In this document: one piece after another, positions 32,038 through 53,461 of the stretch
Numbering within the stretch: the first letter of the stretch is position 1
Layout: each line of letters begins with the position of its first letter
DNA from: Ancylobacter sp. Lp-2
Lineage (GTDB): Bacteria > Pseudomonadota > Alphaproteobacteria > Rhizobiales > Xanthobacteraceae
Length of the DNA stretch: 64,000 bases
NCBI RefSeq assembly: GCF_020523795.1
Contig: NZ_JAJALI010000007.1
Location: 62,001-126,000, forward strand
Reading direction: 5' to 3'
The notes under the pieces: model-generated
Databases searched by the model: none
What the model saw: only the letters and a program-made list of their open reading frames with translations
Told to the model about the DNA's origin: nothing
Program-made: the position numbers and the translations under genes

Positions 32038-32038
32038 G

Positions 32039-32899: not shown

Positions 32900-32905
32900 C
32901 TCGTT

Positions 32906-35531: not shown

Positions 35532-35566
35532 GACTTTTCGCTCATCTTCGAGGAGAGGCTGCAACC

Positions 35567-37201: not shown

Positions 37202-37245
37202 CCCTTGTTGCGGCGGCCGGAATTGCCGCGCTGATATGATAGTTA

Positions 37246-37278: not shown

Positions 37279-37331
37279 GCGTTAGACGAATGTGCCTTCT
37301 TACGGCGAGACAGATCGGCGTTGGCAAATCG

Positions 37332-38294
37332 ATGATCTCCTACTTCCTCCGACGGATCTTGCACGCACTGATTGTGTTGTGGGCAACATTCACGGCGACG
37401 TTTTTCTTGCTCTACGTCCTTCCCGGCGATCGCGCGCTCAGCAAGCTGGGAGCCGACAGCGGCGGAGGTGCTGTAAATCTTGAGGAATTGGCAAAACTAC
37501 GTGCGGAGATGGGGCTCGATCAGCCCGTTCTCGTGCAATATCTCCGCGCGCTCTGGCGGGCGCTGCATGGCGATTTCGGCGTTTCCGGGCAGACCGGTGG
37601 CGACGCGCTCGCGATGTTCGCGACCGGCGTACCCGAGACGCTGAAGCTCGCTGCCTGCGCGCTTGCCCTCGGCCTTGCCCTGGGGATCGGCTGGGCGTTG
37701 CTGGCGACCTATACCCGTTCGTCCACGATCCGTCAGATCCTTGCCGGAATGCCTGTGATCGGCGTGTCGGTGCCGCCTTTCTGGGTTGGGCTGGTCCTGC
37801 TCCAGTTCCTGTCCTTCCAGTGGAACCTGCTGCCGGCGATCGGCAATGCCGGCCTCGCGAGCCTGGTTCTCCCGGCGATCGTGCTCGCCATCCCGAAGGC
37901 GGCAGTCGTGGCGCAGATCCTGTCGCGAAGCCTCGAAACCTCGATGAAATCTCCGTACATCGAGACCGCCATCTCGCGCGGGGCCAGCCGGGCACGGGCG
38001 CTGCTCGGCCACGCCTTCCGCAATTCCATCATCCCGGTCATCACCGCTCTCGGCATGGCCGCCGGCCAGCTCATCGCCGGCTCGGTGGTGGTGGAGACCG
38101 TCTTTTCGCGCTCCGGCATCGGCCTCATCACCGTGAAGGCCGTCACCTATCAGGATACGCCGGTGGTGCTGGTCGCCGTGGTGTTCGCGGCGTCGGTGTT
38201 CGTCACGGTCAATCTCGTCGTCGATCTCTTCTACCCACTGATCGACCGCCGCATCGACATCGGCATGCGCCGTCCGACGATCCAGGGAGCCTGA
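37332..38294 (+). CDS. Peptide-type ABC transporter permease (DppB-like)
   Basis: 320 residues from the ATG at 37332, chosen because it begins the classic MISYFLRRILHALIVLWATFT helix; 14 codons upstream are open but unlikely. Other marks are LPGDRALS, FGVSGQTGGDAL, the coupling loop AISRGASRARALLGHAFRN and the final VVDLFYPLIDRRI. It is the first gene of a nine-gene operon running to 48141 with gaps of a few bases or 4-bp overlaps. Confidence 0.92.
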   Translation: MISYFLRRILHALIVLWATFTATFFLLYVLPGDRALSKLGADSGGGAVNLEELAKLRAEMGLDQPVLVQYLRALWRALHGDFGVSGQTGGDALAMFATGVPETLKLAACALALGLALGIGWALLATYTRSSTIRQILAGMPVIGVSVPPFWVGLVLLQFLSFQWNLLPAIGNAGLASLVLPAIVLAIPKAAVVAQILSRSLETSMKSPYIETAISRGASRARALLGHAFRNSIIPVITALGMAAGQLIAGSVVVETVFSRSGIGLITVKAVTYQDTPVVLVAVVFAASVFVTVNLVVDLFYPLIDRRIDIGMRRPTIQGA

Positions 38295-38297
38295 GCC

Positions 38298-39194
38298 ATG
38301 ACCATGACCTATCCCCGCGGGGAAGGCAGCGCCGCCGCGGGCCGGCCGGTATCGCGCGCCCTTGGCGAATTGCGCATCGCCACGGCGTCCCTGCTGCGCC
38401 AGCCCGGGCTTTTGCTCGCCTCTATCGTGCTGGCGACCGTGCTGAGCGCGGCGCTGTTTCCGCAGATATTCACTCCGCTCAATCCGTTGCGTGGCTCCGG
38501 CGCGGCGCGGCTTCTGGCGCCGAGCGCGGCGCACTGGTTCGGCACTGACCAGCTCGGGCGCGACCTGTTGACACGCGTCGTCTACGGCACCGGCGAATCG
38601 GTGAAGGCGGTGGCGGTCGCGGTGATGGTCGGTCTCGTCCTTGGCTCGGTCATCGGTCTCCTCGCCGGCTATGTCGGCCGGTGGGTCGACGACATCCTGA
38701 TGCGCGTCATGGATGTGCTGCTCGCGGTGCCGACGCTCCTGATATCGCTGGCGATCATCAATGCGCTCGGATTTGGCACCTTCAACATCGCCATCGCGGT
38801 CGGCATTGGCAGCGTGGCCAGCTTCGCCCGCGTCATGCGCTCCGAGGTGCTGAAGGTTCGGCAGATGCCCTATGTCGAAGCCGCTTCCTTCGCCGGCATC
38901 GGGCCCTTGCGTACGCTGATCCGCCATGTGCTGCCGAACGCGGCGGGACCGGTGCTGGTGCTGGCGACGCTGGAGCTCGGAATGGCCATCCTCAGCGTCT
39001 CGGCGTTGAGTTTCCTCGGCTTCGGCGCACCGCCGCCCGCGCCCGAATGGGGCCTGCTCGTTGCCGGCGGGCGCGACTATATGGCCACCGCCTGGTGGCT
39101 GACGACGCTGCCCGGCCTCGTCATCGCCATCACCGTCCTTTCCGCCAATCGTGTCGCCCGCGCGCTCGACCGGCGCCACGCCGCGACCTTCTAG
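38298..39194 (+). CDS. Peptide-type ABC transporter permease (DppC-like)
   Basis: 298 residues, starting 3 bp after the previous stop. It shows the DppC pattern: HWFGTDQLGRDLLTRVVYGT, a helix pair GLVLGSVIGLLAGYVG, DVLLAVPTLLISLAII, and coupling loop EAASFAGIGPLRTLIRHVL. It forms the membrane channel with the preceding permease. The gene pair duplicates the architecture of importer 1. Confidence 0.92.
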   Translation: MTMTYPRGEGSAAAGRPVSRALGELRIATASLLRQPGLLLASIVLATVLSAALFPQIFTPLNPLRGSGAARLLAPSAAHWFGTDQLGRDLLTRVVYGTGESVKAVAVAVMVGLVLGSVIGLLAGYVGRWVDDILMRVMDVLLAVPTLLISLAIINALGFGTFNIAIAVGIGSVASFARVMRSEVLKVRQMPYVEAASFAGIGPLRTLIRHVLPNAAGPVLVLATLELGMAILSVSALSFLGFGAPPPAPEWGLLVAGGRDYMATAWWLTTLPGLVIAITVLSANRVARALDRRHAATF

Positions 39195-39204
39195 AGGCGG
39201 TGCC

Positions 39205-40866
39205 ATGACGGACACCTCTAATCTTCTCCTGGCGGTCAGGGGCCTGAAGGTCGCCTATCGCACCCGCGACCGTGTCATCGAGGCGGTGCGCGGCGTCGAC
39301 ATCGACGTCCGGCGGGGAGAGGTCGTTGCGCTGGTCGGCGAATCCGGCTCGGGGAAGAGCACCATCGCCCATGCGATCATGGGTATGTTGCCGCCCGCCG
39401 CCAGCATCACCGCCGGCACAGTCACATTCGACGGCGAGGACCTGACCCGCCTCTCCGAGCGGGCCTATCGCCGCCTGCGCGGCCAGCGGCTCGGCTGGGT
39501 TCCGCAGGACCCGATGGTGGCGCTGAATCCCTCGCACCGTGTCGGCCGGCAGGTCGCCGAACCTCTGCTGATCCACCGTCTGGCGTCGAAAGCCGAGGCA
39601 AAGACGCGGGCGATCGAGGCGCTTGGCCGTGTGGGTCTGGGCCAGCCCGAAATCCGCGCCGAGCAGTTTCCGCACGAGCTTTCCGGCGGCATGCGCCAGC
39701 GTGCCCTGATCGCCGGCGCGCTGATCTGCGGACCGGCGCTGATCGTCGCCGACGAGCCGACCACGGCGTTGGACGTGACCGTGCAGAAGCGGATCCTCGA
39801 CGATATCGGCGCGCTCGCGGCCTCCTCTGGTACGGCGGTCCTAATCATCACCCACGACCTTGCCGTCGCTGCCGACCGGGCGGACCGCATCGTGGTGCTA
39901 CGCCACGGAACGGTGATGGAGGAGGGAGACGCGCGAGATGTGCTCCGCAACCCCCAGGACGCCTATACCCGGCTTCTTCTGGCAAGTGCGCCCAGCCTTT
40001 CTTCCGGGCGCCGCCGGCATGCGACATCGCACCCGGCGGCGGGAGCCGTTCGGCCATTGCCCGACCCGCGTCCGCCGCTGGTCGCGGTGGAGAACGTGAC
40101 GAAGGATTTCGCGGTCTCCGATGCCGGTGGCCACCGCGGCACATTCCGCGCCGTCGACGGCGTCAGTCTTGCGATCGCACCCGGCGAAACGCTTGGCCTG
40201 GTAGGGGAATCCGGATCGGGCAAGTCGACGCTCGCCCGTATCGTCCTCGGCCTGGTCCAGCCCACCAGCGGCGAAGCAAAGTTCGAGGGGCGCGCTCTCG
40301 CCGGCCTGAGCGCCGCCGAGGAGAGGGAACGCCGCCGACAGGTGCAGCCCGTCTATCAGAACCCGTTCTCGTCCTTGAATCCCCGCCTCACGGTCGCCGA
40401 GATCGTCGGCGAGCCGCTCGCCGGCTTCCGCCTCGGCGATCGGGAATGGCGCCGCCGCCGCACGTTGGAACTGCTCGATCAGGTCGGCCTGCCGCACGCC
40501 TTTGCGGAGCGGCTGCCCGCCGAACTCTCCGGTGGTCAGCGCCAGCGTGTCGCCATTGCGCGTGCCTTGGCGCCGGAGCCAGCCCTGGTGGTGTGCGACG
40601 AGCCGGTCTCGGCGCTCGACGTGTCGATCCAGGCGCAGGTGCTCGACCTGCTCGCCGAACTCCAGCACCGCCATGGGCTTGCCTATCTCTTCATCTCCCA
40701 CGATCTCGCGGTGGTCCGTCAGGTTTCCGACCGGGTCGGCGTGATGAAGGATGGACGGATCGTCGAGCTGGACACCGCCGACGAAGTGTTCCGAGCCCCC
40801 AAGCATCCCTATACGCGGCTGCTTCTCGATTCCATTCCCGGCCGCAGACTGGCAGAAGCCTCATGA
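39205..40866 (+). CDS. Peptide-type ABC transporter double ATPase (DppD-DppF fusion)
   Basis: 553 residues from the ATG at 39205. Two nucleotide-binding domains are visible. The first has [17 protein letters not shown] and VADEPTTALD. The second has [17 protein letters not shown] and CDEPVSALD. The peptide-importer extension P-Y-T-R-L-L-L follows each. It energises importer 2. Its last four bases overlap the start of the flavoprotein gene at 40863 as ATGA, so import and catabolism are translationally coupled. Confidence 0.93.
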   Translation: MTDTSNLLLAVRGLKVAYRTRDRVIEAVRGVDIDVRRGEVVALVGESGSGKSTIAHAIMGMLPPAASITAGTVTFDGEDLTRLSERAYRRLRGQRLGWVPQDPMVALNPSHRVGRQVAEPLLIHRLASKAEAKTRAIEALGRVGLGQPEIRAEQFPHELSGGMRQRALIAGALICGPALIVADEPTTALDVTVQKRILDDIGALAASSGTAVLIITHDLAVAADRADRIVVLRHGTVMEEGDARDVLRNPQDAYTRLLLASAPSLSSGRRRHATSHPAAGAVRPLPDPRPPLVAVENVTKDFAVSDAGGHRGTFRAVDGVSLAIAPGETLGLVGESGSGKSTLARIVLGLVQPTSGEAKFEGRALAGLSAAEERERRRQVQPVYQNPFSSLNPRLTVAEIVGEPLAGFRLGDREWRRRRTLELLDQVGLPHAFAERLPAELSGGQRQRVAIARALAPEPALVVCDEPVSALDVSIQAQVLDLLAELQHRHGLAYLFISHDLAVVRQVSDRVGVMKDGRIVELDTADEVFRAPKHPYTRLLLDSIPGRRLAEAS

Positions 40867-41744
40867 GCGAACCCTTCGACCTTGCGGCGGCCTCCCTGGC
40901 CGTGCGTGCATCCGCGCTCGACGATGCGGGCGCCGCCATCGTTCTCGCCGGACATTATGCGGCGAACGATCTGGCGCGACATCTGGGTGCGCCCACCGCG
41001 CGCTATGCCGTTTCCACCGACGGCGTGCGGGTGATCGGCGGATGGTCGCAAGCCGAGCGGATCCTGATCGTCCCGATCCGGACGGAAGGGAGCGAAGCCC
41101 GCCTCATCCTGCTGGATCGGCATGACCCCGACCTCCACCTCACACGCGCCGAGCCGGGCTTCGGCCTCTCCGGCGCGGAAGAAGGCCTGTTGCCGGCCAA
41201 CGTACCACTGCCGGACGGGGACTCGCTGACAGTCCCCGCTGCCGTGCTCGAAAGCGCGCTGGCACGCCACCGCCTCATTGCCGCTTCGCTGCATCTCGCG
41301 GTCGTGCAGGGGACACTGGACGGCTTCCTCGACCGGGCGGTCGGCTTCCTGAAGGCGCGCTCAACTCCCTGGTACGGCGCGGGTCTGGCCCACGCGACCG
41401 ACGATCCGCATGCGCTGCGCACGCTGGGCCTGCTGTTCGCGCGCCGGAATGCGCTCGATGCCCTCGCGGCCGAAGCCCTCGCCGCGGTCGGCGCGACACT
41501 GGACCAAGATCATCCGTCCGACGCCGTCTCCCGGCTGGATATCGCCCGCCACTACGCGAAGCTCCTCGCCCGCACCCTGGTCAATGAGGGGATCGGCCTG
41601 CTGGGCGCCAGCTCGGCCAGCGGCAAGCATGGCTTCGACCGCTTCTGGCGCGACATTGCCACCCATGAGCTCCATTACCCGCCGCACCGGGACGCCGAGG
41701 CGCTGGGGCGGGATTTCATCACCGAAACGAGGGCCGCTCCATGA
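40863..41744 (+). CDS. N-terminally truncated acyl-CoA-dehydrogenase-like (DszC/SfnC-type) protein
   Basis: 293 residues, against about 400 in full-length relatives such as those at 43072 and 45269. The C-terminal helical domain is present (LHLAVVQGTLDGFLDRAVGF, NEGIGLLGASSAS, DRFWRDIATHELHYP). The N-terminal helical domain and most of the flavin-binding beta domain are missing or reduced. The gene is intact, with ATGA overlaps on both sides, so the short form looks selected rather than decayed. It may be a non-catalytic partner of the two full flavoproteins. Confidence 0.75.
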   Translation: MSEPFDLAAASLAVRASALDDAGAAIVLAGHYAANDLARHLGAPTARYAVSTDGVRVIGGWSQAERILIVPIRTEGSEARLILLDRHDPDLHLTRAEPGFGLSGAEEGLLPANVPLPDGDSLTVPAAVLESALARHRLIAASLHLAVVQGTLDGFLDRAVGFLKARSTPWYGAGLAHATDDPHALRTLGLLFARRNALDALAAEALAAVGATLDQDHPSDAVSRLDIARHYAKLLARTLVNEGIGLLGASSASGKHGFDRFWRDIATHELHYPPHRDAEALGRDFITETRAAP

Positions 41745-43072
41745 GCGCAAGGCACATGCACCTGAACGTCAACGTGCTGCCTTCCGGCTCGCATCCGGCA
41801 TCGTGGCGCGCGCCGGGCGGCAACCCCTCCGCCTTCATCGATGTCGGCCATTATCAGAATATCGCCCGCATCGCCGAGCGCGGCCTGCTCGACGCCGTGT
41901 TTCTGGCCGATGCGCTGAACTCCGCCCCCGATCCCAGTTTCGGGCCGGCCTGGGCGCTCGATCCCGTGGTGATCGTCGCCAGCATGGCGGTGGCGACGAC
42001 CCATGTGGGCTTCATCGCCACCGCATCCACCACCTTCAGCCAGCCTTATAACGTCGCGCGGGCCTTCTCGTCGCTCGACCATGCGAGCGGCGGGCGGGTC
42101 GGCTGGAACGTCGTGACGACCTATGATCAGCGCGCCGCCGGCAATTTCGGCCTGCGGGGATTGCCGGACCATGGGGACCGCTACGCCCGCGCGGCCGAAT
42201 TCGTCGATGTGGTGCTGGCGCTGTGGGAGAGCTGGGAGGATGGCGCCCTGCTCGCGGAACGCGACACCGGCCGTTTTGCCGATGCAAGCCGGATCCACCG
42301 CATCGATCATGCCGGCAAGCATTTCTCCGTCACCGGCCCGCTGCAACTGCCGCGCACGCCGCAGGGCCGGCCGCTGCTGGTGCAGGCCGGCAGCTCCGAT
42401 CAGGGCCGCGATCTTGCCGCGCGCTATGCCGAGGCGGTGTTCAGCGTGCAGCAGGTCGTCGAGGAGGCGCGCGCCTACTATGCCGACGTGAAGGAGAGGG
42501 CGCGGCGGCTGAATCGCGACCCGTCATCCATCGCCATCCTGCCCGGCCTGTCATTGACCATCGGCGGCACCGAGGAGGAGGCGCTCGCCCGCAAGCGCGA
42601 ACTCGACGCCATCGGCGAGGAAGGAGCGCTGAAGCGCTTCGCTGCCCGGCTCGGGGTCGATGTCGGCGAGCTCGATTACGACAAGCCGGTGCCGGATCAC
42701 CTGATTGCCCGGATCGAGGCCGCCAAGGGATCGCGGGGCTTCATCGAGGCGACCGTCGCCGTCGCCAAGGACAGCAGCCTCACGGTCCGCCAGATCATTG
42801 CCCGCGGCGGCGGCGGCCACAGGCTCATCGCCGGCACGCCAGAGCAGATCGCCGATCACATGCAGGAGTGGTTCACCACCGGCGCGGCGGACGGCTTCAA
42901 CATCATGTGCGACGTGTTCCCCGAAGGGCTCGCCGCCTTCGTCGATCAAGTTGTGCCGATCCTGCAACGGCGCGGCCTGTTCCGCACCGCCTATGGCGAG
43001 CGGACACTGCGCGCGCGGTATGGCTTGCCATGGCCGACGCCCGGCGCCCGTCACGAGCGGGCGGCAAGCTGA
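41741..43072 (+). CDS. LLM-class flavin-dependent monooxygenase (NtaA/SnaA/DszA type)
   Basis: 443 residues. Family blocks are LNVNVLPSGSHPASWR, LLDAVFLADALN, STTFSQPYNVARAFSSLDH, GGRVGWNVVT, LWESWEDGALL and QGRPLLVQAGSSDQGRD. These FMNH2-dependent enzymes hydroxylate or cleave C-S and C-N bonds. It overlaps both neighbours by a few bases within the importer-2 operon. The reaction is probably oxidation of the imported organosulfur compound, together with the DszC-like proteins. Confidence 0.9.
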   Translation: MSARHMHLNVNVLPSGSHPASWRAPGGNPSAFIDVGHYQNIARIAERGLLDAVFLADALNSAPDPSFGPAWALDPVVIVASMAVATTHVGFIATASTTFSQPYNVARAFSSLDHASGGRVGWNVVTTYDQRAAGNFGLRGLPDHGDRYARAAEFVDVVLALWESWEDGALLAERDTGRFADASRIHRIDHAGKHFSVTGPLQLPRTPQGRPLLVQAGSSDQGRDLAARYAEAVFSVQQVVEEARAYYADVKERARRLNRDPSSIAILPGLSLTIGGTEEEALARKRELDAIGEEGALKRFAARLGVDVGELDYDKPVPDHLIARIEAAKGSRGFIEATVAVAKDSSLTVRQIIARGGGGHRLIAGTPEQIADHMQEWFTTGAADGFNIMCDVFPEGLAAFVDQVVPILQRRGLFRTAYGERTLRARYGLPWPTPGARHERAAS

Positions 43073-44298
43073 TGACCGCGCATATCGGCATTCCCCAGAA
43101 GAGCGCGGCCTTCCTTTCTTCGCACGAAGAGGCGGTCGCCGCCGCGTGCGAGCTTGCAGCCGGCTGGAAGCAGGTCGCGGCTTCCATCGACGCCGAACGC
43201 CGCGTGCCGCAGGCCGAGCTTGATGCGTTGGGCCGTTCCGGGCTGCTCGCCATCACCATTCCCAGTCAGCATGGCGGGCCTGGACTGGGAGCGGAGACGC
43301 TGATCGAGGTATTCCTCATCCTCGGCGCCGCCGACACCGCGCTGGCCCAGGTGCCGCAGAACCACTTCGATTTCGTCGACACCCTCCTCGTCGCGGCACC
43401 GCAGACCCAGAAGCTGCTTTATGGCGACGTGCTGGCCGGCGCCCGCTTCGGCAACGCCATCGCCGAACCGAACCGGCGGTCGCGGGCCGATCTCAAGACC
43501 GCCATCGTGGAGGATGGCGACGGCTACCTCATCAACGGCGCGAAATACTTCTCCACCGGTGCGCTCACCGCGCAATGGGTGCCGGTGCATGCGCTTCACG
43601 CGGATGGGCGCGTGCGCACGGCCTATGTCGCCAACGGCACGCCCGGTCTCGAACTGCGCAAGGACTGGGACGCGTTCGGCCAGCGCGCCACCTTCAGCGG
43701 CACCACCCTGCTCACCAATGTGCGGGTTCCGGCGAGCCAGGTGGTGGACCGCTCGCTTGGCGATCCCGGCCTGCTGACCGCGCAATTCGCCGGGAACCAG
43801 CTCATCCATGCGGCGATCGAAGCGGGCTCCGCGATTGGAGCGCTCTCCACGGCGGCGCGATGGCTGGGAGAAGCCGAAACGCCGTCTGCCGTCCGGCTCG
43901 CCCGGCTGGGAGATCTCCGCGCCGAAGCCGAGGCCGCGACCGCGCTGGTTCGTCGGGCGGCTAGGCTGGTGGATGCCGCGTTGGAGCGGCCTTTGCCGCC
44001 GCAGGAGGCCCCCCTTGCAGCGGCGATCGCGGTCGATGAGGCGAAGAGCCTCGCCTATGAGCTCGGGCCGCAGGTCGCCAGCGAGCTGCTCGATTTCTCT
44101 CCCCCGGGGGCCGTGGCCGAACGGCTGCGGCTCGACCGCTTCTGGCGCAACACCCGAACCCATTCGATGCACGATCCGGTGCGCTGGCGGCAGGCGTTCG
44201 TCGGCGACTACCACCTCAATGGCCGCCTGTCGGCCGATCTGCAGGCGAAGCTGAAGCTCGCCGCCCCCATCATCCCGAACAAAGCGAGCGACGCATGA
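43072..44298 (+). CDS. Acyl-CoA-dehydrogenase family monooxygenase (DszC/SfnC-like)
   Basis: 408 residues from an ATG sharing bases with the preceding stop. It contains all three domains: an N-terminal helical part (QAELDALGRSGLLAITIPSQ, HGGPGLGAETLIEV), the beta domain with GARFGNAIAEPNRR, YLINGAKYFSTGA and WDAFGQRATFSGTT, then the C-terminal helical bundle (RLDRFWRNTRTHSMHDPVRW). Relatives oxidise sulfur or nitrogen atoms with reduced flavin and oxygen rather than dehydrogenating CoA esters. The R-N-x-R-T-H-S-x-H-D-P motif fits the DszC/SfnC branch. Confidence 0.88.
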   Translation: MTAHIGIPQKSAAFLSSHEEAVAAACELAAGWKQVAASIDAERRVPQAELDALGRSGLLAITIPSQHGGPGLGAETLIEVFLILGAADTALAQVPQNHFDFVDTLLVAAPQTQKLLYGDVLAGARFGNAIAEPNRRSRADLKTAIVEDGDGYLINGAKYFSTGALTAQWVPVHALHADGRVRTAYVANGTPGLELRKDWDAFGQRATFSGTTLLTNVRVPASQVVDRSLGDPGLLTAQFAGNQLIHAAIEAGSAIGALSTAARWLGEAETPSAVRLARLGDLRAEAEAATALVRRAARLVDAALERPLPPQEAPLAAAIAVDEAKSLAYELGPQVASELLDFSPPGAVAERLRLDRFWRNTRTHSMHDPVRWRQAFVGDYHLNGRLSADLQAKLKLAAPIIPNKASDA

Positions 44299-45272: not shown

Positions 45273-46516
45273 GCCCGATGACCAGCGCGCCGAACCCTAC
45301 GCGGGCGGAGCCCGTCTCCCTGCCGCTCCGGTTGCCGGACCGCACGAGCCTGCTCGGGCGCGTGCCGGCATTGGCGGAGTGCATCGCGGTGGGGGCGGCG
45401 CAGCGCGACATCGCGCGTGAATTGCCGTTCGATGCCTTCGTCCTGTTCCGCGAAAGCGGACTGGGGGCGCTGCGATTGCCCCGCGCCTGGGGCGGCCCCG
45501 GCGGCACGGTCGAGGACGCGATCGAGCTGATCGCCACCTTGGCGCAGGCGGATTCGAACGTCGCCCACGCCCTGCGCCCGCATTTCAACTTTGTCGAGCT
45601 CCTCGTCACCAACAACGCCGACGCCTGCCCTCCGCTCGCGCAAGCCGTTGCCCGTGGCGAGCTTTTCGGCAGCGCCAGCACGGAGATCGGCACGCCGCGG
45701 CCCGGCATCATCGCCACGCAACTGTCGCAGCGGGCCGGGGGCTTCCGGCTGAATGGGCGCAAGCACTACGCCACCGGCACGGCCTATGCCGATTGGGTGA
45801 GCCTCAGCGCCTTGGACGAAGCCGGCGCCGTGGTGCGGGTTCTGGTGCCGACGAACCGAGCCGGCGTCGAGATCCTGGACGACTGGGACGGGATGGGCCA
45901 GCGCTTGACCGCCAGCGGCGGTATCGTCTTCGAGGATGTCGAGGTCTTTGCCGATGAAATATCCGCCCGCCCGCCGGGCAGCCACCCGTCGCGTCATGCC
46001 TCGACCTTTCGGCAGCTTTTCCTCGCCGCCTGTATTGCGGGGATCGTGCGCAACATTGTGACCGACGCCACAGACTACGTGCGACGCCAGGCGAGGCCCA
46101 TCGCGCACAGCCCCGCCGCCACGGCGCGGGACGATCTCTTTGTCCAGCAGGCGATCGGCGAGATCGCCGCGTTGTCCTATGCGGTCGACAGCCTGCTCGC
46201 CCGTGCCGCTCGCACCAGTGACCGTGCGCAGCAGGCGATTTTTGCCCACGCGCCGGACGTTGACGGGATCCTCGCCGACAACGCGGTGGAGACCGCCAAG
46301 GCGCAGGTCGTGATCGGCGAGCTTGCCCTGAAGGCAGCCCAGCGCATCTTCGATGCCGGCGGTGGTTCGGCCACCAGCCGCGCGCTCAATTTCGACCGCC
46401 ATTGGCGGAACATCCGCACCCTGCTCAGCCACAACCCGTCCGCCTACAAGGCGCAGGTCGTGGGCGACCATCTCATCAACGGGACGGCGCCTCCGACGGA
46501 CGGGGGATTTTTCTGA
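45269..46516 (+). CDS. Acyl-CoA-dehydrogenase family monooxygenase (DszC/SfnC-like), second copy
   Basis: 415 residues, starting in ATGA overlap with the amidohydrolase stop. It shows LPRAWGGPGGTVEDAIELI, HFNFVELLV, ELFGSASTEIGTPRPG, FRLNGRKHYATGTAYADW, WDGMGQRLTASGG and the C-terminal FDRHWRNIRTLLSHNPSAYK. It is diverged from the copy at 43072, so the two probably act on different substrates or successive steps rather than being redundant. Reduced flavin must come from a reductase not encoded nearby. Confidence 0.88.
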   Translation: MSPMTSAPNPTRAEPVSLPLRLPDRTSLLGRVPALAECIAVGAAQRDIARELPFDAFVLFRESGLGALRLPRAWGGPGGTVEDAIELIATLAQADSNVAHALRPHFNFVELLVTNNADACPPLAQAVARGELFGSASTEIGTPRPGIIATQLSQRAGGFRLNGRKHYATGTAYADWVSLSALDEAGAVVRVLVPTNRAGVEILDDWDGMGQRLTASGGIVFEDVEVFADEISARPPGSHPSRHASTFRQLFLAACIAGIVRNIVTDATDYVRRQARPIAHSPAATARDDLFVQQAIGEIAALSYAVDSLLARAARTSDRAQQAIFAHAPDVDGILADNAVETAKAQVVIGELALKAAQRIFDAGGGSATSRALNFDRHWRNIRTLLSHNPSAYKAQVVGDHLINGTAPPTDGGFF

Positions 46517-46536
46517 TTCAAACCCCGGACCCAGCC

Positions 46537-48141
46537 ATGCGCTTTCCTGCACCGTCCCGTCCGTCCTCCTTCTGGCTCGCCGCCGTGGCCCTCGGCCTCG
46601 TGGCCGGAGCCGCACAGGCACAGGACACGCCGAAATCAGGCGGCACTCTTGTCGTCGGCCTTCAGGTGCAGTCGCAATGCCTCGATCCGCAGCAACATCA
46701 GCACGGCTTCGGCTCACGCGAAGGGCGGCAGATCGTCGACTCCCTCACTGACCAGGGACTTGAGGACGCGTCGAAGATCGTGCCCTGGCTGGCGAAGTCG
46801 TGGGAGATCAACGCTGACGCCACCCGCTACGTCTTTCACCTGCGCGACGATGTCACCTTCAGCGACGGTGCCAAGCTCAATGCCAATGTGGTGAAGGACA
46901 ATTTCGAGGCCCTGGCGAAGATTCCTGGCGCCGCCGGTGCGGAGTACCTGTCGGGCGTCGCCTCCATCGAGGTGCTCGATCCCGCAACGGTGGCGATCGC
47001 CTTCAGGGAGCCGAATCTCGCCTTTCTCGCCGCTACCGCCACCTCGGAACTTGGGCTCGTTTCGCCGGCGACGGCGAAGAAGGCGCCCGACGCGCGCTGC
47101 TATGAAGGCGTCATCGGATCGGGACCGTTCGTGATCGAGAGCGCGGTCTTCAACGAGCAGGTCGTGCTGGCGAAGCGCAAGGACTACAACTGGGCCTCCA
47201 GCCTCAAGAAGCATCAGGGCGAGGCCTATCTCGACAAGGTGGTGGCCAAGGTCATTCCCGAGGCGAGCGTCCGCACAGGGGCACTCACCAGCGGCCAGGT
47301 CGACCTCATCGCCTTCGCGTCCTATCAGGACGCCGCGAAGCTGAAGGAGGCCGGATTCAGCCTCGTCAACGCTCCCTATGTCGGCACGGCGGCAAGCCTG
47401 TTCGTGAACGTCTCGCGTCCGGTGGTCAGCGATGTCGAGGTTCGGCGGGCACTGCGCCAAGGCATCAACACGCAGGACGTGGTGGAACTGGTGCAGAACG
47501 GCTATGTCGACGCCGCCACCGGCCTGCTGACGCCGAAGACGCCGGGCTTTCTCGATCAGACCAGGCAGCTTCCCTACGACCTCGACGCCGCCAAGGCGCG
47601 CCTCGACAAGGCGGGCTGGAAGGAAGGCGCCGACGGCATCCGCGTCAAGGACGGCCAGAGGCTGAAGATCACCGGCGCGTTCTTCTCCAACGCCCTCAAC
47701 CGTCAGCTGTTCGAGGTGCTCCAGCAGCAGCTGCGCGACCTTGGTGTGGACTTCATCGTAAAGCCGATCCCGAGCAGCGCCGAATATCTGCAGGGGCAGA
47801 TCCGCGGGGATTACGACGTCTATCGCTGGCACTGGTCGCTGGCCGATCCCGACGTGCTGCGCAAGGACTATTCGAGCGCGGGCATCAATCGCCTGCGTCT
47901 GCCGCCGGAGAACGACATCGATGCGCTTCTCGTCAAGCAGGCCGGCACCACTGATCCGGTAGAACGACGCAAGCTGACGGACGAGGTGCAGACGATCATC
48001 CTCGATCGTGGCTATGGCATCCCGCTGTTCAATCCCGACAATCTCTGGGCGGCCAACGGGAAGGTGAAAGGCCTGGCGTTCGGGCCGAGCGGCACGGGCG
48101 GGCCGCATGTCATCTTCTTCGACACCTGGTTGGCGCAGTAG
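46537..48141 (+). CDS. Family 5 ABC substrate-binding protein, paralogue of the one at 35567
   Basis: 534 residues from the ATG at 46537; the first 45 codons of the longer frame overlap the previous gene. A Sec signal peptide ends VAGAAQAQD. The mature start SGGTLVVGLQVQSQCLDPQQ and blocks DATRYVFHLRDDVTFSDGAK and PEASVRTGALTSGQVDLI align with the protein at 35567, so the operon is flanked by a duplicated binding protein. It is the last gene of the importer-2 operon and supplies ligand to the same permeases. Confidence 0.9.
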   Translation: MRFPAPSRPSSFWLAAVALGLVAGAAQAQDTPKSGGTLVVGLQVQSQCLDPQQHQHGFGSREGRQIVDSLTDQGLEDASKIVPWLAKSWEINADATRYVFHLRDDVTFSDGAKLNANVVKDNFEALAKIPGAAGAEYLSGVASIEVLDPATVAIAFREPNLAFLAATATSELGLVSPATAKKAPDARCYEGVIGSGPFVIESAVFNEQVVLAKRKDYNWASSLKKHQGEAYLDKVVAKVIPEASVRTGALTSGQVDLIAFASYQDAAKLKEAGFSLVNAPYVGTAASLFVNVSRPVVSDVEVRRALRQGINTQDVVELVQNGYVDAATGLLTPKTPGFLDQTRQLPYDLDAAKARLDKAGWKEGADGIRVKDGQRLKITGAFFSNALNRQLFEVLQQQLRDLGVDFIVKPIPSSAEYLQGQIRGDYDVYRWHWSLADPDVLRKDYSSAGINRLRLPPENDIDALLVKQAGTTDPVERRKLTDEVQTIILDRGYGIPLFNPDNLWAANGKVKGLAFGPSGTGGPHVIFFDTWLAQ

Positions 48142-48260
48142 GTGTGAGAGTTCGGAAGGGCTGGTGTGGCCGGAATGCAAGCGACCGCCCGCGATGGCCA
48201 AGAGACCGGGAGCGGGCTCGCGCCATCCTCGCGGACGGTCGGCAACCTGGGGAGGGGGCG

Positions 48261-49247
48261 ATGTCTTCACGTGAGCAGAGCATCGACGAGAAGGCCGGGC
48301 CCGATTGCGAAGGCCCGTCCGATCAAGACATCGCCGGGCGGCCTCCGCACTGGAATCTCAGTTCCGTCGTTGCCGGGCTGAAGCTTTCGCGGGACGTGAG
48401 CCACAATATCCGGCACCGAGGGCGGCTGCGGCCGCCGCCGTCGCGCGAAGCCGTGGTCAAGGCGGTGCAGGGCTTTGCCGCGGCACTGTTCCCGGCCCAT
48501 TACGGCGATCCGGGCCTCACCTCCGAAACCATTGATTACTATGTCGGTGCGACGCTGAACGAGGCGCTCACCAACCTCTGCGAGCAGGTTGCGCGCAGCC
48601 TGCCGTTCTCGGTGCAGGAGGATCGCAGCGAACGGGCCTTCCGGACCGAGGCCGCGGATATCACCCGCAGCTTCGCGGCGGCGCTGCCGGAGATCCGGGG
48701 GTTGCTCGTCCATGATCTGCGCGCTGCCTATGACGGCGATCCCGCCGCGACCGGCTATTCGGAGATTCTGCTCGTCTATCCGGGAATGGCCGCGATCCTC
48801 CACCATCGGATCGCCCATGCGCTGCATCGGCTCGGCGCCACCTTTCTCGCGCGCTTCGTCTCAGACATCGCGCATTCGCGCACGGGCATCGATATCCATC
48901 CCGGGGCCGCGATAGGCGAGAGCTTCTTCATCGATCACGGCACGGGCGTGGTCATCGGCGAGACCGCAGTGATCGGCCGGCGCGTGCGCCTCTATCAGGC
49001 CGTGACCCTCGGCGCCAAGAGCTTCCCCGCGGATGAGCGCGGCGTGCTCGTCAAGGGCAATCCCCGGCATCCGATCATCGAGGACGATGTCGTGATCTAT
49101 GCGGGCGCCACGGTGCTTGGCCGGATCACCATCGGACGTGGATCGAGCATCGGCGGAAATGTCTGGCTGACGCATTCGGTGCCGCCGGGGAGCCACATCA
49201 CCCAGGCCCAGAACCGGTCGGGGGAACGGCCTGAAAGGGATCCCTGA
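48261..49247 (+). CDS. epsC: Serine O-acetyltransferase (EpsC-type)
   Basis: 328 residues from the ATG at 48261, preceded by GGGGAGGGGG. The N-terminal helical part (DLRAAYDGDPAATGYSEIL, YPGMAAILHHRIAHALHRLG) leads into a left-handed beta-helix of hexapeptide repeats. The active-site stretch is GIDIHPGAAIGESFFIDHG, with catalytic histidines in DIHPG and DHG. It makes O-acetylserine, the carbon acceptor for sulfide in cysteine synthesis. Its place between an organosulfur operon and a sulfonate importer suggests it provides the acceptor for sulfur released there. Confidence 0.85.
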   Translation: MSSREQSIDEKAGPDCEGPSDQDIAGRPPHWNLSSVVAGLKLSRDVSHNIRHRGRLRPPPSREAVVKAVQGFAAALFPAHYGDPGLTSETIDYYVGATLNEALTNLCEQVARSLPFSVQEDRSERAFRTEAADITRSFAAALPEIRGLLVHDLRAAYDGDPAATGYSEILLVYPGMAAILHHRIAHALHRLGATFLARFVSDIAHSRTGIDIHPGAAIGESFFIDHGTGVVIGETAVIGRRVRLYQAVTLGAKSFPADERGVLVKGNPRHPIIEDDVVIYAGATVLGRITIGRGSSIGGNVWLTHSVPPGSHITQAQNRSGERPERDP

Positions 49248-49308
49248 CGGCCGGTCGCCACCCATACATCACGATGCCATAAGTCGCGTCACCGGGGGCA
49301 TGATGCGA

Positions 49309-49346
49309 TTGACATGCTATTAATCTACTAGATATTTAGATTAATA
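49309..49346 (+). promoter_or_regulatory. TTGACA promoter with perfect 10-bp inverted repeat operator
   Basis: TTGACA at 49309-49314 is a consensus -35 hexamer. TATTAATCTA (49318-49327) and TAGATTAATA (49337-49346) form a perfect 10-bp inverted repeat with a 9-nt spacer that covers the -10 region. The AGGAG ribosome site of the binding-protein gene follows at once. A repressor binding here would block the promoter, plausibly one sensing sulfur status. Confidence 0.65.
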
Positions 49347-49360
49347 GGAGAGCCCACATC

Positions 49361-50398
49361 GTGACCGCCATTTCCGTTTTCAATCTGCGCAGTCGCCTGC
49401 TGCCGATCGCCCTCGGGTTCCTCGGCGCCCTGACCGTGGCCGCGACGGCGCAGGAGGCCTTGCACGTCAATGTGCCGGCCGGCACGAAGCTCGTCGTGGC
49501 CGACCAGAACGAAGAACTCCAGACGCTGATGATCGCCTCCGGCGAGCAGGCGAAGCTGGCCTCGTCCGCGACCTATGCCAACTTCCTTGGCGGTCCCGCC
49601 ATTCTGGAGGCGTTCCGCGCCGGTGCGCTCGATCTCGCGACGGTCGGCAACGTGCCGCCGATCCAGGCACAGGCCGCCGGAGAGGAGATCCGCATCGTCG
49701 CCGCCCGCGAAACCTCCGAGCCCGACTATCATTTCGCGCTGCGTCCTGGCCTGTCGGGCGTCAATACGCTTGCCGATCTGCGTGGCAAGCGTATCGCCTA
49801 TGCCGAGGGCACCGGCCGCCAGGCTTTCGTGCTGACCGCGCTCAAGCTCGCCGGTCTCACCCGCAAGGACGTCACTTTCGTCCCGTTGCGCTCCAGCGAC
49901 ATGCCCGATGCCGTTCGCAGCGGACAGATCGATGTAGGGGTGCTGAACGAGCCGCATTACTCGCGCTATCTCGCGGACTATGCCGGCAAAGGGCAGCTCG
50001 CCGTGCCGGACAGCGCCTATGAGAAGATGCCTCGCGCGCTGACCTATCTCTATGCGTCCGGCGCCGCGCTACGCGATCCGGCGAAGGCCGCGGCTATCCG
50101 CAATTTCGTCATCGGCTGGGCGGCCGCGAACCGATGGTCCGACGCCAATCCCGATGCATGGGTGAAGGCCTATTACGTCGACCGCCAGCGGCTGAAGGAG
50201 GCCGATGGCCGGGCCATCGTGCAGTCGCAGGGCCGCGCGTCGTTCCTGCCATTGAAGTCTTTGCTGGGTTACCAGCAGGGGCTCGTCGACCTGATCCACG
50301 CCGCCGGCGACCTGCCAAAGCATCTCGACGCCACGCAGGAGTTCGACCTGCGTTTCGACACAGTCGCCAGCACCGCCTTCGGCAAGGCCGCCGACTAG
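49361..50398 (+). CDS. Aliphatic sulfonate-type ABC substrate-binding protein (SsuA-like)
   Basis: 345 residues from a GTG at 49361 with AGGAG 7 bp upstream. A Sec signal peptide ends TVAATAQEA. The NMT1-like fold shows ANFLGGPAILEAFRAGALDL, TVGNVPPIQAQ, LADLRGKRIAYAEGTGRQAF and SGQIDVGVLNEPHYS. The typical ligands are alkanesulfonates, sulfate esters or taurine. It leads a four-gene operon (SsuA-, SsuC-, SsuB-like and an LLM monooxygenase) behind an operator-like inverted repeat. Confidence 0.88.
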   Translation: MTAISVFNLRSRLLPIALGFLGALTVAATAQEALHVNVPAGTKLVVADQNEELQTLMIASGEQAKLASSATYANFLGGPAILEAFRAGALDLATVGNVPPIQAQAAGEEIRIVAARETSEPDYHFALRPGLSGVNTLADLRGKRIAYAEGTGRQAFVLTALKLAGLTRKDVTFVPLRSSDMPDAVRSGQIDVGVLNEPHYSRYLADYAGKGQLAVPDSAYEKMPRALTYLYASGAALRDPAKAAAIRNFVIGWAAANRWSDANPDAWVKAYYVDRQRLKEADGRAIVQSQGRASFLPLKSLLGYQQGLVDLIHAAGDLPKHLDATQEFDLRFDTVASTAFGKAAD

Positions 50399-50466
50399 AT
50401 TCACCGGATGACGGGTGCCGCTGCAATGGCGCTCGTCATCCGAGGGCCGATCATGGGGACGTCACG

Positions 50467-51339
50467 ATGACCCTTCACGCCAAGCCGTCCGACATCGCGC
50501 CGGTCTCGGTGGTCACCGCTCCGCTGCCCGCCCGGCGCGTGATTGCGCGACGCTCGATACGTTCGCGCCGCCTGACCCCGCGCACGCTCGGTCCGGCCGG
50601 GCTGTTGATCGGGCCGGCGGTGCTCGTGCTGGTCTGGGAGTTCGCCTCGCAGGTCGGTTGGCTGTCGCCGCGCCTGCTCGCCGCACCGTCCACGGCGGCG
50701 GTGACCGGTTTCGAGATGCTGCTGGACGGTGATCTCACCGCGCATTTCCTCGCTTCTGCCCAGCGCGCCTATGCCGGGCTCGGTCTCGGGCTGGTCATCG
50801 GTGTCGTGCTGGCGCTTCTCGCCGGTCTCACCCGCTCCGGTGAAGCGAGCATCGACGGCGCGGTGCAGATCAAGCGCGCCATTCCCACCCTTGCCCTCAT
50901 CCCGCTCGCCATATTGTGGCTCGGCATCGGTGACGCGATGAAGGTGGCGCTCATCACCACCGCCGTCCTGGTGCCAATCTACATCAACACTCATGCGGCG
51001 CTGCGCAGCATCGACCTTCGCTATGTCGAACTCGCCCGCACCGTCGGGCTGACGCGGCTCGAATTCGTCCGCAAGGTGGCGTTGCCGGGAGCGCTGCCCG
51101 GCTTCTTCACCGGGCTGCGGCTGGCGGTCACCGCGTGCTGGACCTCGCTGGTGGTGCTGGAGCAGATCAACACCACCGAGGGCATCGGTTATCTCATGAA
51201 CCGCGCCCGCGACTACGGCCAGACCGACATCATCGTGGTCGGGCTCGCGATCTACGCCATTCTCGGTCTCGCTTCCGATTTCGCGGTCCGTGCGCTCGAG
51301 CGCCGGGCGCTCGCCTATCGCAAGGTGCTCGGCTCATGA
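50467..51339 (+). CDS. Sulfonate-type ABC transporter permease (SsuC-like)
   Basis: 290 residues from the ATG at 50467; longer frames are shadows of the previous gene. It has six hydrophobic helices after a basic N-terminal tail, including LGLGLVIGVVLALLAGL, and KRAIPTLALIPLAILWLGIG, the standard SsuC/TauC block. The coupling loop is ARTVGLTRLEFVRKVALPGALPG with the E-A-A-like glycine. The stop overlaps the ATPase start as ATGA. Confidence 0.9.
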   Translation: MTLHAKPSDIAPVSVVTAPLPARRVIARRSIRSRRLTPRTLGPAGLLIGPAVLVLVWEFASQVGWLSPRLLAAPSTAAVTGFEMLLDGDLTAHFLASAQRAYAGLGLGLVIGVVLALLAGLTRSGEASIDGAVQIKRAIPTLALIPLAILWLGIGDAMKVALITTAVLVPIYINTHAALRSIDLRYVELARTVGLTRLEFVRKVALPGALPGFFTGLRLAVTACWTSLVVLEQINTTEGIGYLMNRARDYGQTDIIVVGLAIYAILGLASDFAVRALERRALAYRKVLGS

Positions 51340-52088
51340 GTGCGGCTGCTACCCTGGTGCCCGATTTCGTCGATCCGCGGGAGAACGCGACGGTCCGCAT
51401 CCGTGACGTCGTGCGTCGCTTCGACAGCCGCACGGCACTCGACGGCATCAGTCTCGACATTCCCGCCGGACAGTTCGTGGCGCTGATCGGCAAGAGCGGT
51501 TCCGGCAAAAGCACGCTTTTGCGCGCCATTGCCGATCTCGACGATGATGTGGAAGGTGGCGGCCGGATCGACGCGCCGGACAACCGTTCGGTGCTGTTCC
51601 AGGATTCGCGGCTGCTGCCCTGGCAGAGCGTCATCGAGAACATCCTGCTCGGGGTGCGGGATGCCGGCGCCCGCGCCCGGGCCGAAGCCGTGCTCGCCGA
51701 TGTCGGCCTCGCAGGCCGGGCGGATGCCTGGCCGAACCAGCTTTCCGGCGGCGAGCAGCAGCGTGTCGCGCTCGCGCGCTCACTGGTGCGCCGGCCGGAC
51801 CTGCTCTTGGCCGATGAGCCCTTCGGTGCCCTTGATGCGCTGACCCGGCTGAAGATGCAGCAATTGCTGTTCCGCCTCGTCGGCGTCCAGCGTCCGACCA
51901 TCGTGCTGGTCACGCACGATGTGGACGAGGCGCTCATCCTGGCCGACCGCGTGCTGGTCATGGACGAGGGCCGTATCGTCCTCGACCGCCCGGTCGGCAT
52001 CGCTCATCCGCGTCGCGCGTCCGATCCCGCTTTCGCGACGCTGCGCACCACCCTGCTCGGCGCGCTTGGCGTGACCGAGACCATCTGA
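51336..52088 (+). CDS. Sulfonate-type ABC transporter ATPase (SsuB-like)
   Basis: 250 residues. Walker A is GKSGSGKST, the Q-loop VLFQDSRLLPWQSV is of the SsuB/TauB kind, the signature is LSGGEQQR, Walker B is LLADEPFGALD and the switch histidine is in VTHDVDEA. It drives uptake with the SsuC-like permease. The degenerate ATPase fragment at 34239 belongs to the same family, evidence that this region once carried another such importer. Confidence 0.93.
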   Translation: MSAAATLVPDFVDPRENATVRIRDVVRRFDSRTALDGISLDIPAGQFVALIGKSGSGKSTLLRAIADLDDDVEGGGRIDAPDNRSVLFQDSRLLPWQSVIENILLGVRDAGARARAEAVLADVGLAGRADAWPNQLSGGEQQRVALARSLVRRPDLLLADEPFGALDALTRLKMQQLLFRLVGVQRPTIVLVTHDVDEALILADRVLVMDEGRIVLDRPVGIAHPRRASDPAFATLRTTLLGALGVTETI

Positions 52089-52108
52089 CGCTCCCGGAGC
52101 CTGCCCAC

Positions 52109-53461
52109 ATGTCGCGCAAGCTGCATCTCAACCTGTTCATCCACGGCCGAGGCCATCATGAGACGGCGTGGCGGCATCCGGCCTCCACGCCGCTGGCGCT
52201 GACCGATATCGCCTATTATCGCGGTCTCGCGCAGACGGCGGAGAAAGGGCTGTTCGATTCCGTTTTCCTCGCCGACGCGCTCGCCATCGGCGAGGAGGTG
52301 AGCCATGCCGCCAAGGGCGGGCTGGAGCCGATCACCACGCTGGCGGCGCTCGCCGGCGCCACCGAGCGGATCGGCCTCATCGGCACGGCGTCCACCACCT
52401 ACACCGAGCCCTACAACCTCGCCCGGCAGTTCGCCTCGCTCGACCATATCAGCGCCGGCCGGGTCGGCTGGAACATCGTCACATCGTGGGTGCCGGGCGC
52501 CGGGCCGAACTACGGCCACGATAACCAGATCGAGCATGGCGAGCGCTACGACCGTGCCTTCGACTTCCTCGAGGCGGTCACCAAGCTGTGGGACAGCTGG
52601 GCCGACGACGCGGTACTCGACGACCGCGCCGGCGGGCACTTCGCCGACCCCGCCCGCATCACCCGGATCGATCACACGGGCCCTCACCACAAGGTTGCGG
52701 GTCCGTTGAACATTCCGCGCTCGCCGCAGGGGCGTCCTGTCTATGTGCAGGCGGGGTCGTCGACGGCCGGCCGGCGTTTCGCCGCCAGATATGCCGAAGC
52801 GGTGTTCACCGCCCATCTCGAAAAATCCACCGCTGTGGATTTCTATGCCGACATCAAGGGGCAGGCCGCCCGTCTCGGCCGCCGGCCCGACCAGATCCTC
52901 ATCCTGCCGGGCATCAGCGCGGTGATCGGCTCGACCGAGGAGGAGGCGAAGCGCCTGTTGCGCGACCTCAACGAACTGTCCGATCCGAAGGTCGGGCTGG
53001 AGCGTCTGTCGGGCCGCTTCGGGGGGCATGACTTTTCGCGGCTTGATCTCGACAAGGTGCTGACCCGCGCCGATTTTCCCGATCCCGCGACCGTGCAGAC
53101 GGCGCAGAGCCGCGCTTATGTCATCGTGGCGCTGGTGGAGCGCGAGAAGCCGACCTTGCGGCAACTGCTGCACAGTCTCGCCGGCGCGCGTGGCCATTTC
53201 TCCATGGCCGGTACGCCGGAGCAGGTCGCCGACCATATCGAGGACTGGTTCCGCTCCGGCGCTGCGGATGGGTTCAATGTCATGCCGCCGATCCTGCCGG
53301 CGCATCTCGAAACCTTCATCGACGAAGTGGTGCCGCTGCTTCAGAGGCGAGGACTGTTCCGCACCGCCTATGAGGCCGACACGCTACGCGGCCATTACGG
53401 GCTCGACCGTCCCGGCAGCCAGTTCTTCGACATTCCCGCCATTCAGGCCCCAGCCGCCTGA
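52109..53461 (+). CDS. LLM-class flavin-dependent monooxygenase (NtaA/SnaA/DszA type)
   Basis: 450 residues, starting 20 bp after the ATPase gene. Blocks are LHLNLFIHGRGHHETAWR, GLFDSVFLADALA, STTYTEPYNLARQFASLDHI, AGRVGWNIVTSWVPGAGPNYG, LWDSWADDAVL and QGRPVYVQAGSS. It is a paralogue of the proteins at 22011 and 41741. Behind an SsuABC-like importer it takes the place SsuD holds in the classic system, so desulfonation or C-S cleavage of the imported compound is likely. It is of the NtaA subgroup rather than SsuD itself. Confidence 0.9.
   Translation: MSRKLHLNLFIHGRGHHETAWRHPASTPLALTDIAYYRGLAQTAEKGLFDSVFLADALAIGEEVSHAAKGGLEPITTLAALAGATERIGLIGTASTTYTEPYNLARQFASLDHISAGRVGWNIVTSWVPGAGPNYGHDNQIEHGERYDRAFDFLEAVTKLWDSWADDAVLDDRAGGHFADPARITRIDHTGPHHKVAGPLNIPRSPQGRPVYVQAGSSTAGRRFAARYAEAVFTAHLEKSTAVDFYADIKGQAARLGRRPDQILILPGISAVIGSTEEEAKRLLRDLNELSDPKVGLERLSGRFGGHDFSRLDLDKVLTRADFPDPATVQTAQSRAYVIVALVEREKPTLRQLLHSLAGARGHFSMAGTPEQVADHIEDWFRSGAADGFNVMPPILPAHLETFIDEVVPLLQRRGLFRTAYEADTLRGHYGLDRPGSQFFDIPAIQAPAA

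Follow-up and report, generated by a model that had tools for sequence, protein, structure and literature searches.

In a 64,000-nucleotide stretch of contig NZ_JAJALI010000007.1 from Ancylobacter sp. Lp-2 (the window), we describe an island at 28743-53461 that most likely imports an organosulfur molecule, oxidises it and routes the released sulfur into cysteine. We put the probability of this reading, and of sulfur scavenging as the role of an island of that extent, at about 0.78. Its central part is a cluster of nine co-directional genes (37332-48141), naturally read from their arrangement as one operon, in which a peptide-type (Dpp) importer stands with a luciferase-like (LLM) flavin-dependent monooxygenase, relatives of the flavoproteins SfnB and DszC, and an amidohydrolase. 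Downstream lie a serine O-acetyltransferase (SAT) of the EpsC type and an SsuACB unit with an LLM monooxygenase of its own; upstream lies a divergent set of genes (Table 1). The parts belong to known families, and their combination looks undescribed and related to the flavin-monooxygenase modules of sulfate starvation.

More than 95% of soil sulfur is organic (PMC4267179). The organosulfur compounds usable by soil and root-nodule bacteria are poorly known, and the region offers a testable gene set with relatives in root-nodule bacteria.

Layout of the island and proposed route

Gene models were rebuilt by codon usage and then checked against Pfam and NCBIfam. An earlier note, made from the sequence letters, had placed an organosulfur acquisition island at 37332-53461. 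The open reading frames, strands and families at its positions were all verified, including the nine-gene cluster, the EpsC-type SAT and the SsuACB unit with its own LLM monooxygenase downstream. Its boundaries enclose real genes and stop short, missing the divergent half (28743-37192), to which a second Dpp importer belongs. Its description of the cluster as joined mostly by 4-bp overlaps was overstated: neighbouring genes overlap by 4 bp at three of the eight junctions and by 1 bp at one, and are separated by 3, 10, 5 and 20 bp at the rest. The proposed import, flavin-dependent oxidation and delivery to cysteine are supported by the LLM enzymes, the SfnB/DszC/MsuC-type proteins, the SrpH/EpsC-type SAT and the context of the amidohydrolase.

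Gene content, families and conserved neighbourhoods are directly observed, and from them we infer all the reaction steps, their order and the substrate. An organosulfur compound, probably a fairly small one with an acid or amide group, would enter through the peptide-type ABC importer and family 5 solute-binding proteins (SBPs). Once it is in the cytosol, the SfnB/DszC-type flavoproteins may oxygenate its sulfur atom, converting a thioether to a sulfone or a sulfinate to a sulfonate, the NtaA/DmoA-type LLM monooxygenase would cleave the C-S bond with FMNH2 (reduced flavin mononucleotide), and the ACMSD-like amidohydrolase may hydrolyse or decarboxylate the carbon part. Sulfite would be set free and then reduced, and the SAT would provide O-acetylserine, with sulfide trapped as cysteine. 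The SsuACB-LLM unit might process a sulfonate-type compound in parallel or mop up a sulfonate product.

Flavin-dependent enzymes

Both LLM monooxygenases are members of the NtaA/DmoA family (TIGR03860; 517.4 and 543.2 bits, cut-off 279.7), and the closest solved structures of both are YtnJ/MoxC. For LLM1, YtnJ (319 bits) is followed by NtaA (302) and EmoA (293); for LLM2, the next distinct protein after YtnJ/MoxC is DszA. The three SfnB/DszC-like proteins score 355.3, 292.2 and, for the short one, 65.3 bits with SfnB (TIGR04022, cut-off 430.9), the corresponding scores with DszC (NF043015, cut-off 850) being 131 and 144.1 bits for the two SfnB-like proteins and 56.4 bits for the short one. These sub-cut-off scores make the two full-length flavoproteins relatives of the named families rather than members; both match the TdsC, DszC, MsuC and 8cda structures. 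The one at 45278-46516 has a match of at least 50% identity in 12 of the 29 related amidohydrolase loci presented below.

The rank of NtaA and EmoA also bears on nitrogen or metal-chelate catabolism, in which the ligand imported by a family 5 protein would be an aminopolycarboxylate or resemble a metallophore, and the LLM enzyme would oxidise a C-N bond as EmoA and NtaA do. Indeed, the best solved relatives of the binding protein in the nine-gene cluster are largely of the NikA type, its score with the NikA model being below the cut-off. Such a system would, however, not be expected to include SfnB/DszC-type flavoproteins, an SrpH-type SAT and SsuACB, nor the rhodanese, MsuE and DszB-like genes found in relatives, and we regard it as improbable.

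The third SfnB/DszC relative, of 293 amino acids, is about 115 residues shorter than its neighbours, the loss being mostly N-terminal; the three DszC-like proteins of the earlier note are thus two full-length proteins and a short one. The latter retains the C-terminal motif FDRFWR..TH..H.P and the C-terminal bundle, and a sequence search of the PDB matches it best to the C-terminal part of DszC. Its AlphaFold model (mean predicted local distance difference test score, pLDDT, 63) is confident in the C-terminal bundle only, and a fold search with it returned DszC as the top match (template modelling score, TM, 0.57 over the query). This protein is without much of the flavin-enzyme fold; it probably acts as a helper subunit or else is a copy in decay. 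The 4-bp overlaps that join its gene to both neighbours speak against simple decay and are no proof of function. With the six best candidates of each genome scored, 45 of 397 genomes of the order, its own among them, had a match and none a close relative, the best match outside the own genome reaching 75 bits and 39% identity over 132 residues. One weak match falls in an open frame of comparable length, 289 amino acids (genome G513).

The Ancylobacter genome holds 36 LLM matches, 35 of them above the cut-off. Contig C27 (20001-140000) carries a larger organosulfur region, in which 11 LLM matches are accompanied by several SsuBC sets, Dpp importers and SfnB-like genes.

Conserved neighbourhood of the amidohydrolase

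As a lone query of genome contigs, the amidohydrolase returned no relatives; a four-sequence profile did find them, at 43 loci in named genomes. Twenty-nine are close (43-53% identity; 25 alphaproteobacterial and four from Frankia or Protofrankia) and 14 distant (22-32%). Neighbours were counted as best hits in up to 10 kb per side, some flanks being shorter, and the SsuB query cross-matches DppDF. Within the close loci, LLM genes are present in 26, Dpp permeases in 21, family 5 SBPs in 19, ACAD_R (an acyl-CoA-dehydrogenase-like protein of rhizobial islands) in 18, SfnB-like genes in 17 and DszB-like genes in 16; rhodanese (7), SsuC (6) and MsuE (4) are rarer, and EpsC is found in none. An LLM enzyme, a flavoprotein and an importer occur jointly in 19 of the 29. 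In each of the 25 alphaproteobacterial loci an LLM gene lies no more than about 10 kb away, and 16 of these loci also have a DszB-like gene. The 14 distant loci gave one family 5 SBP, no LLM gene, no SfnB-like gene and none of the others. Annotated plasmids show similar groupings: one from Sinorhizobium brings together LLM, amidohydrolase, SBP, sulfurtransferase, an SBP-permease-ATPase set and MsuE, and one from Rhizobium LLM, amidohydrolase, SBP, rhodanese, acyl-CoA dehydrogenase and Dpp genes.

In the PDB, the amidohydrolase profile matches ACMSD and aromatic decarboxylases. This would suit carbon catabolism, with an aromatic or heterocyclic acid being decarboxylated, the flavoproteins acting as hydroxylases and sulfur being incidental, as would the resemblance of the product of 34656-35531 to 4,5-dihydroxyphthalate decarboxylase. 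The Pfam results for 28743-53461 contain, however, no ring-cleavage or CoA-ligase family, and the neighbourhoods of the relatives consist of sulfur genes; we consider such a role very improbable.

DszB-like desulfinase candidates in rhizobial islands

A protein labelled "ABC transporter substrate-binding protein" in the Rhizobium and Sinorhizobium islands matches DszB (PDB 2de2, E 5e-12). The N-termini of these DszB-like proteins, judged by eye, are without a signal-like start. Every one of 32 aligned rows keeps residues C27, H60 and R70 of DszB and the RXGG motif; several rows are nearly identical, and two are tandem copies in the Ancylobacter genome. We take H60 to be a catalytic residue of DszB. 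With an AlphaFold model of a DszB-like protein (mean pLDDT 82), the best Foldseek match is DszB (TM 0.71-0.75, 24% identity), SsuA being found at a similar TM of 0.72 with 15% identity and a weaker E-value. C27 is described as critical, and R70 is placed in an RXGG motif of DszB homologues and presumed structural (PMC6100217). In a plasmid collection, 81 records matched the DszB stretch, Sinorhizobium accounting for 47.

Judged from sequence and fold, the rhizobial sister islands appear to hold a Dsz-like C-A-B enzyme set, whose DszB-like part is a candidate desulfinase, labelled as a transporter protein where annotation exists. Through these proteins, the range of 4S-like sulfur removal, for which actinobacteria have been the main subjects, could be widened to include nodulating bacteria; desulfurisation of benzothiophene by Sinorhizobium sp. 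KT55 is cited (PMC3868597). We can propose, tentatively and with some doubt, that the island is part of an undescribed and widespread alphaproteobacterial desulfurisation system. A Dpp-type importer would bring in a natural sulfur heterocycle or sulfone, to be processed by DszC-, DszA/SfnG- and DszB-like enzymes and a dedicated amidohydrolase. The rhizobial desulfinase would be the protein labelled as an ABC substrate-binding protein, and in the window the last step might have passed to the amidohydrolase, to LLM2 or to the distant DszB-like pair.

Serine acetyltransferase

By sequence reading, the SAT most likely starts at ATG 48261, 119 bp past the preceding gene, and stops at 49247. It is a member of the EpsC family (NF041874; 161.1 bits when read from GTG 48144, cut-off 150) and falls under the CysE cut-off (TIGR01172; 165.6 bits, cut-off 210.65); one other match in the genome, on contig C22 (230.7 bits), lies above the latter. 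It is 61% identical to the EpsC of Synechococcus plasmid pANL, placed between a cysteine synthase and an SrpI encapsulin/cysteine desulfurase pair. In S. elongatus, the SrpI pair is reported to be raised under sulfate deprivation (PMC8049743). The simplest reading is of a SAT that serves sulfur starvation and is here set between two organosulfur units.

Among 297 genomes of the same order, 15 SAT matches above 240 bits were found outside the own genome, in 14 genomes. An S. elongatus SrpI query (tblastn) matches nine of these 15 loci at 63-76% identity, and SfnB-like and LLM genes stand together in three, one of which (L177) has SrpI as well; in L178 and L179 the SAT lies amid SfnB, LLM and Ssu genes, as it does in the window. 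In the Ancylobacter genome, the same query gave no match, an empty answer that alone is not proof. The closest plasmid relatives of the SAT are of the Burkholderia type (up to 66% identity). No sulfur neighbours were found beside the SAT relative in a Mycetohabitans plasmid or in Paracoccus, and none of the remaining queries matched the unannotated SAT stretch of Burkholderia multivorans. Locus L177 (G231:C2:1-17000) itself has matches to a Dpp ATPase, LLM, SfnB-like protein, EpsC, SrpI encapsulin and cysteine desulfurase.

The nine-gene operon, the SAT and the SsuACB-LLM unit might also form a mosaic of independent sulfur modules with no joint pathway, an arrangement that is compatible with sulfur scavenging. 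The modules recur apart, as the absence of the SAT from the close amidohydrolase loci illustrates, SsuACB has its own inverted repeat, and the genome has its larger stretch of such genes on contig C27. On the other hand, all the units are co-located within 25 kb, and the gene company of the SAT in L178 and L179 resembles that in the island. We hold such a mosaic to be a genuine possibility, short of being the probable one.

Inverted repeat and operator-like motif

The SsuACB-LLM genes may be a separate transcription unit, since they are preceded by an AT-rich stretch that includes a perfect 11-bp inverted repeat (49317-49347). Shuffling the local 131 bases 2000 times by mononucleotide never produced such a repeat; the same scan of the whole window finds such repeats at six places, this one counted. 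The SsuA-like protein itself scores below the SsuA family cut-off (TIGR01728; 118.1 bits, cut-off 163.5).

An operator-like motif, TCTAYNGAWWWWAT, has 32 matches in the Ancylobacter genome with at most one mismatch, against 5 for the reversed pattern. Seven of the 8 exact and 6 of the 24 one-mismatch matches are followed within 600 bp by one of 65 listed LLM, SfnB, SBP5 or SsuA/DszB-like genes (expected, 0.22 of 32). These gene-upstream matches are mostly in the stretches from which the motif was learned; outside them, 3 of 18 matches are upstream of listed genes, at two sites, one of which was visible before the pattern was chosen. Sites near other organosulfur genes are found on contigs C27, C30, C2 and C22 (for example C27:55809 and C22:310508). 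Scans of the window with Rfam (gathering threshold) and for tRNAs were empty.

Observations weighing against sulfur scavenging

Several observations weigh against a sulfur-scavenging island. Neither a flavin reductase nor a CysB-type regulator appears in the Pfam results for 28743-53461, the part of the genome searched for them. Amines, too, are substrates of NtaA/DmoA enzymes, and for LLM1 the solved relatives next after YtnJ are NtaA and EmoA. The motif TCTAYNGAWWWWAT has no match in the window, whose promoters resemble it weakly; for this reason, and given that most of its gene-upstream matches fall in the learned stretches, it is not main evidence. No DszB-like gene was found within the window with a rhizobial DszB-like query (tblastn, E 1e-6), which leaves the locus outside the 4S/dsz pathway as marked by a DszB-like desulfinase. 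The SAT occurs in 0 of the 29 close amidohydrolase loci, its tie to the operon thus not being conserved, and 4 of the 15 SAT loci have neither SrpI nor SfnB. The search for the same gene order in other genomes, suggested by the earlier note, showed the whole order to be absent from every locus examined.

The conserved neighbourhoods have limits of their own. The counts are phylogenetically clumped, many loci being from Rhizobiaceae, and are therefore non-independent; the actinobacterial loci are mostly without context (LLM in 1 of 4). Within the organism's own family, the amidohydrolases that come nearest share 35-40% identity (11 matches above 170 bits outside the own genome). The loci at 37-40% identity were considered as orthologous islands and rejected, 9 of the 10 fetched being without context; LLM and SfnB genes were nearby in one of the ten, and one of the ten is a 3.3-kb contig. 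Since context is frequent in the close loci and largely absent from the distant and own-family ones, the association with sulfur genes belongs to a subfamily and not to the whole amidohydrolase family.

Comparison with known systems

The island shares DszC-like and DszA-like flavin enzymes with the 4S dszABC/bdsABC operons of Rhodococcus and Gordonia; its short protein retains the DszC C-terminal motif, and the rhizobial sister islands add a DszB-like protein. Unlike these operons, the window is without a DszB-like gene and adds a Dpp importer, an amidohydrolase and a SAT, and its SfnB-like proteins are far under the DszC cut-off (131 and 144 against 850 bits). The sulfate-starvation modules of Pseudomonas are SfnB/SfnG/MsuCDE. 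The island likewise combines SfnB-like and MsuC-like flavoproteins with LLM monooxygenases, but its proteins are sub-cut-off for SfnB, an NtaA/DmoA-type LLM replaces SfnG and the importer is of the peptide type. The earlier note had likened the region, in logic but not in gene set, to the S-alkylcysteine operons of Bacillus. The likeness to the ytm/yxe operons of Bacillus subtilis holds for the LLM enzymes, nearest to YtnJ/MoxC in the PDB, and for nothing beyond them: the Pfam results for the island include neither a Sna-type N-acetyltransferase nor a cystine-type binding protein.

The SAT is of the same subfamily as those of the SrpH-SrpI-CyD loci of Synechococcus pANL and Variovorax (61% and 59% identity), but the genome has no SrpI match and its SAT stands between organosulfur units. 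A Pantoea plasmid cluster has a TIGR04028 SBP, two permeases, an ABC ATPase, an LLM enzyme and an amidohydrolase in one run; it differs by its alkylhydroperoxidase-domain and VOC proteins and by having no SfnB-like gene in the listed stretch, and the SBPs of the window are under the TIGR04028 cut-off.

Published expression studies are consistent with sulfur regulation of such genes. The genes raised in Gordonia terrae on benzothiophene relative to sulfate include some for FMNH2-monooxygenases and peptide ABC transporters whose locus tags adjoin (GTC6_13080-13100; PMC3868597). In Gordonia alkanivorans, sfnB and two acyl-CoA dehydrogenase genes are up on dibenzothiophene (DBT), in a strain reported to show no dsz operon (PMC11852219). 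NtaA-type and SsuA/DszB-type proteins are apparently among those raised on DBT, to judge from their position above the "lowered" heading (PMC8557817), and two nitrilotriacetate monooxygenase genes have a higher expression with a fluorinated sulfonamide than with sulfate (PMC7661421). Sulfur-regulated relatives thus exist for several parts of the island, and its novelty lies in the way the parts are assembled. Among titles and abstract openings, with most subscription papers outside the search, we found no published description of the island's gene set or of the rhizobial DszB-like genes.

Divergent half and importers

On the plus strand, the divergent set (28743-37192) reads as a family 5 SBP, DppDF, DppC, DppB, a Pht5-like protein and a second family 5 SBP, and shares the intergenic region 37193-37331 with the nine-gene cluster. 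The SBPs at 35567-37192 and 46537-48141 are 57% identical over 499 residues. The top three TIGR04028 matches of the genome all lie within the window (402.4, 316.9 and 311.5 bits; the next scores 127), and all three are under the 468.5-bit cut-off. The SBP at 46537-48141 scores 317 bits with TIGR04028, 179 with NikA and 104 with GsiB, each below its cut-off. The glutathione- or cysteine-conjugate substrate suggested earlier thus finds no specific support, and glutathione import was rejected, nothing beyond the GsiB score pointing to it.

Table 1. Features of the island and of related DszB-like loci (positions in the window unless a locus or contig is named)
Feature	Position	Strand	Evidence or remark
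Family 5 SBP, TIGR04028-like	28743-30365	-	402 bits, cut-off 468.5
Fused DppD-DppF-type ABC ATPase, second importer	30385-32037	-	
DppC-type permease, second importer	32039-32899	-	
DppB-type permease, second importer	32906-33868	-	
SsuA/Pht5-type protein, no signal-like start	34656-35531	-	4,5-dihydroxyphthalate decarboxylase-like, PDB 9jp7, E 2e-33
Family 5 SBP	35567-37192	-	Paralogue of 46537-48141
Divergent intergenic region, AT-rich core	37193-37331		Weak match to operator-like motif
DppB-type permease	37332-38294	+	Pfam, codon usage
DppC-type permease	38298-39194	+	Pfam, codon usage
Fused DppD-DppF-type ABC ATPase	39205-40866	+	Pfam, codon usage
Short DszC-like (acyl-CoA-dehydrogenase-like) protein, 293 aa	40863-41744	+	Pfam, PDB match, model
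LLM FMN-dependent monooxygenase LLM1, NtaA/DmoA family	41741-43072	+	TIGR03860 517 bits
SfnB/DszC-like flavoprotein	43072-44298	+	TIGR04022 355 bits, cut-off 430.9
Amidohydro_2 (PF04909) protein, ACMSD-like metal-dependent hydrolase/decarboxylase family	44295-45272	+	
SfnB/DszC-like flavoprotein	45278-46516	+	TIGR04022 292 bits
Family 5 SBP (SBP_bac_5), signal-like N-terminus	46537-48141	+	TIGR04028-like, 317 bits
EpsC/SrpH-type SAT	48261-49247	+	NF041874 161 bits, cut-off 150
Perfect 11-bp inverted repeat, arms 9 bp apart, operator candidate	49317-49347		Just upstream of SsuA
SsuA-like sulfonate-type binding protein, signal-like N-terminus	49361-50398	+	
SsuC-like permease	50467-51339	+	Pfam, codon usage
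SsuB-like ATPase	51357-52088	+	Pfam, codon usage
LLM FMN-dependent monooxygenase LLM2, NtaA/DmoA family	52109-53461	+	TIGR03860 543 bits
DszB-like candidates	L069 17203-18240; L096 16202-17245; L117 616-1653		Examples among 32 aligned rows
Tandem DszB-like pair, own genome outside window	C30:159460-161588		

Between DppB and the Pht5-like gene lies a degenerate relic of an SsuB-like ABC ATPase (34239-34523, plus strand; 36% over 95 amino acids). On a Streptomyces plasmid (NZ_CP109116.1, locus L073), LLM genes and a sulfurtransferase accompany close relatives of the Dpp importer (49-52% identity), next to genes of polyketide biosynthesis. Further upstream in the window, a GntR/FCD regulator and a glutamine amidotransferase-like gene precede another LLM gene, which is followed by an aldehyde dehydrogenase (22011-24875, plus strand). 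Finally, 25886-28720 (plus strand) encodes a 944-residue protein with several outer-membrane beta-barrel matches in a single chain.

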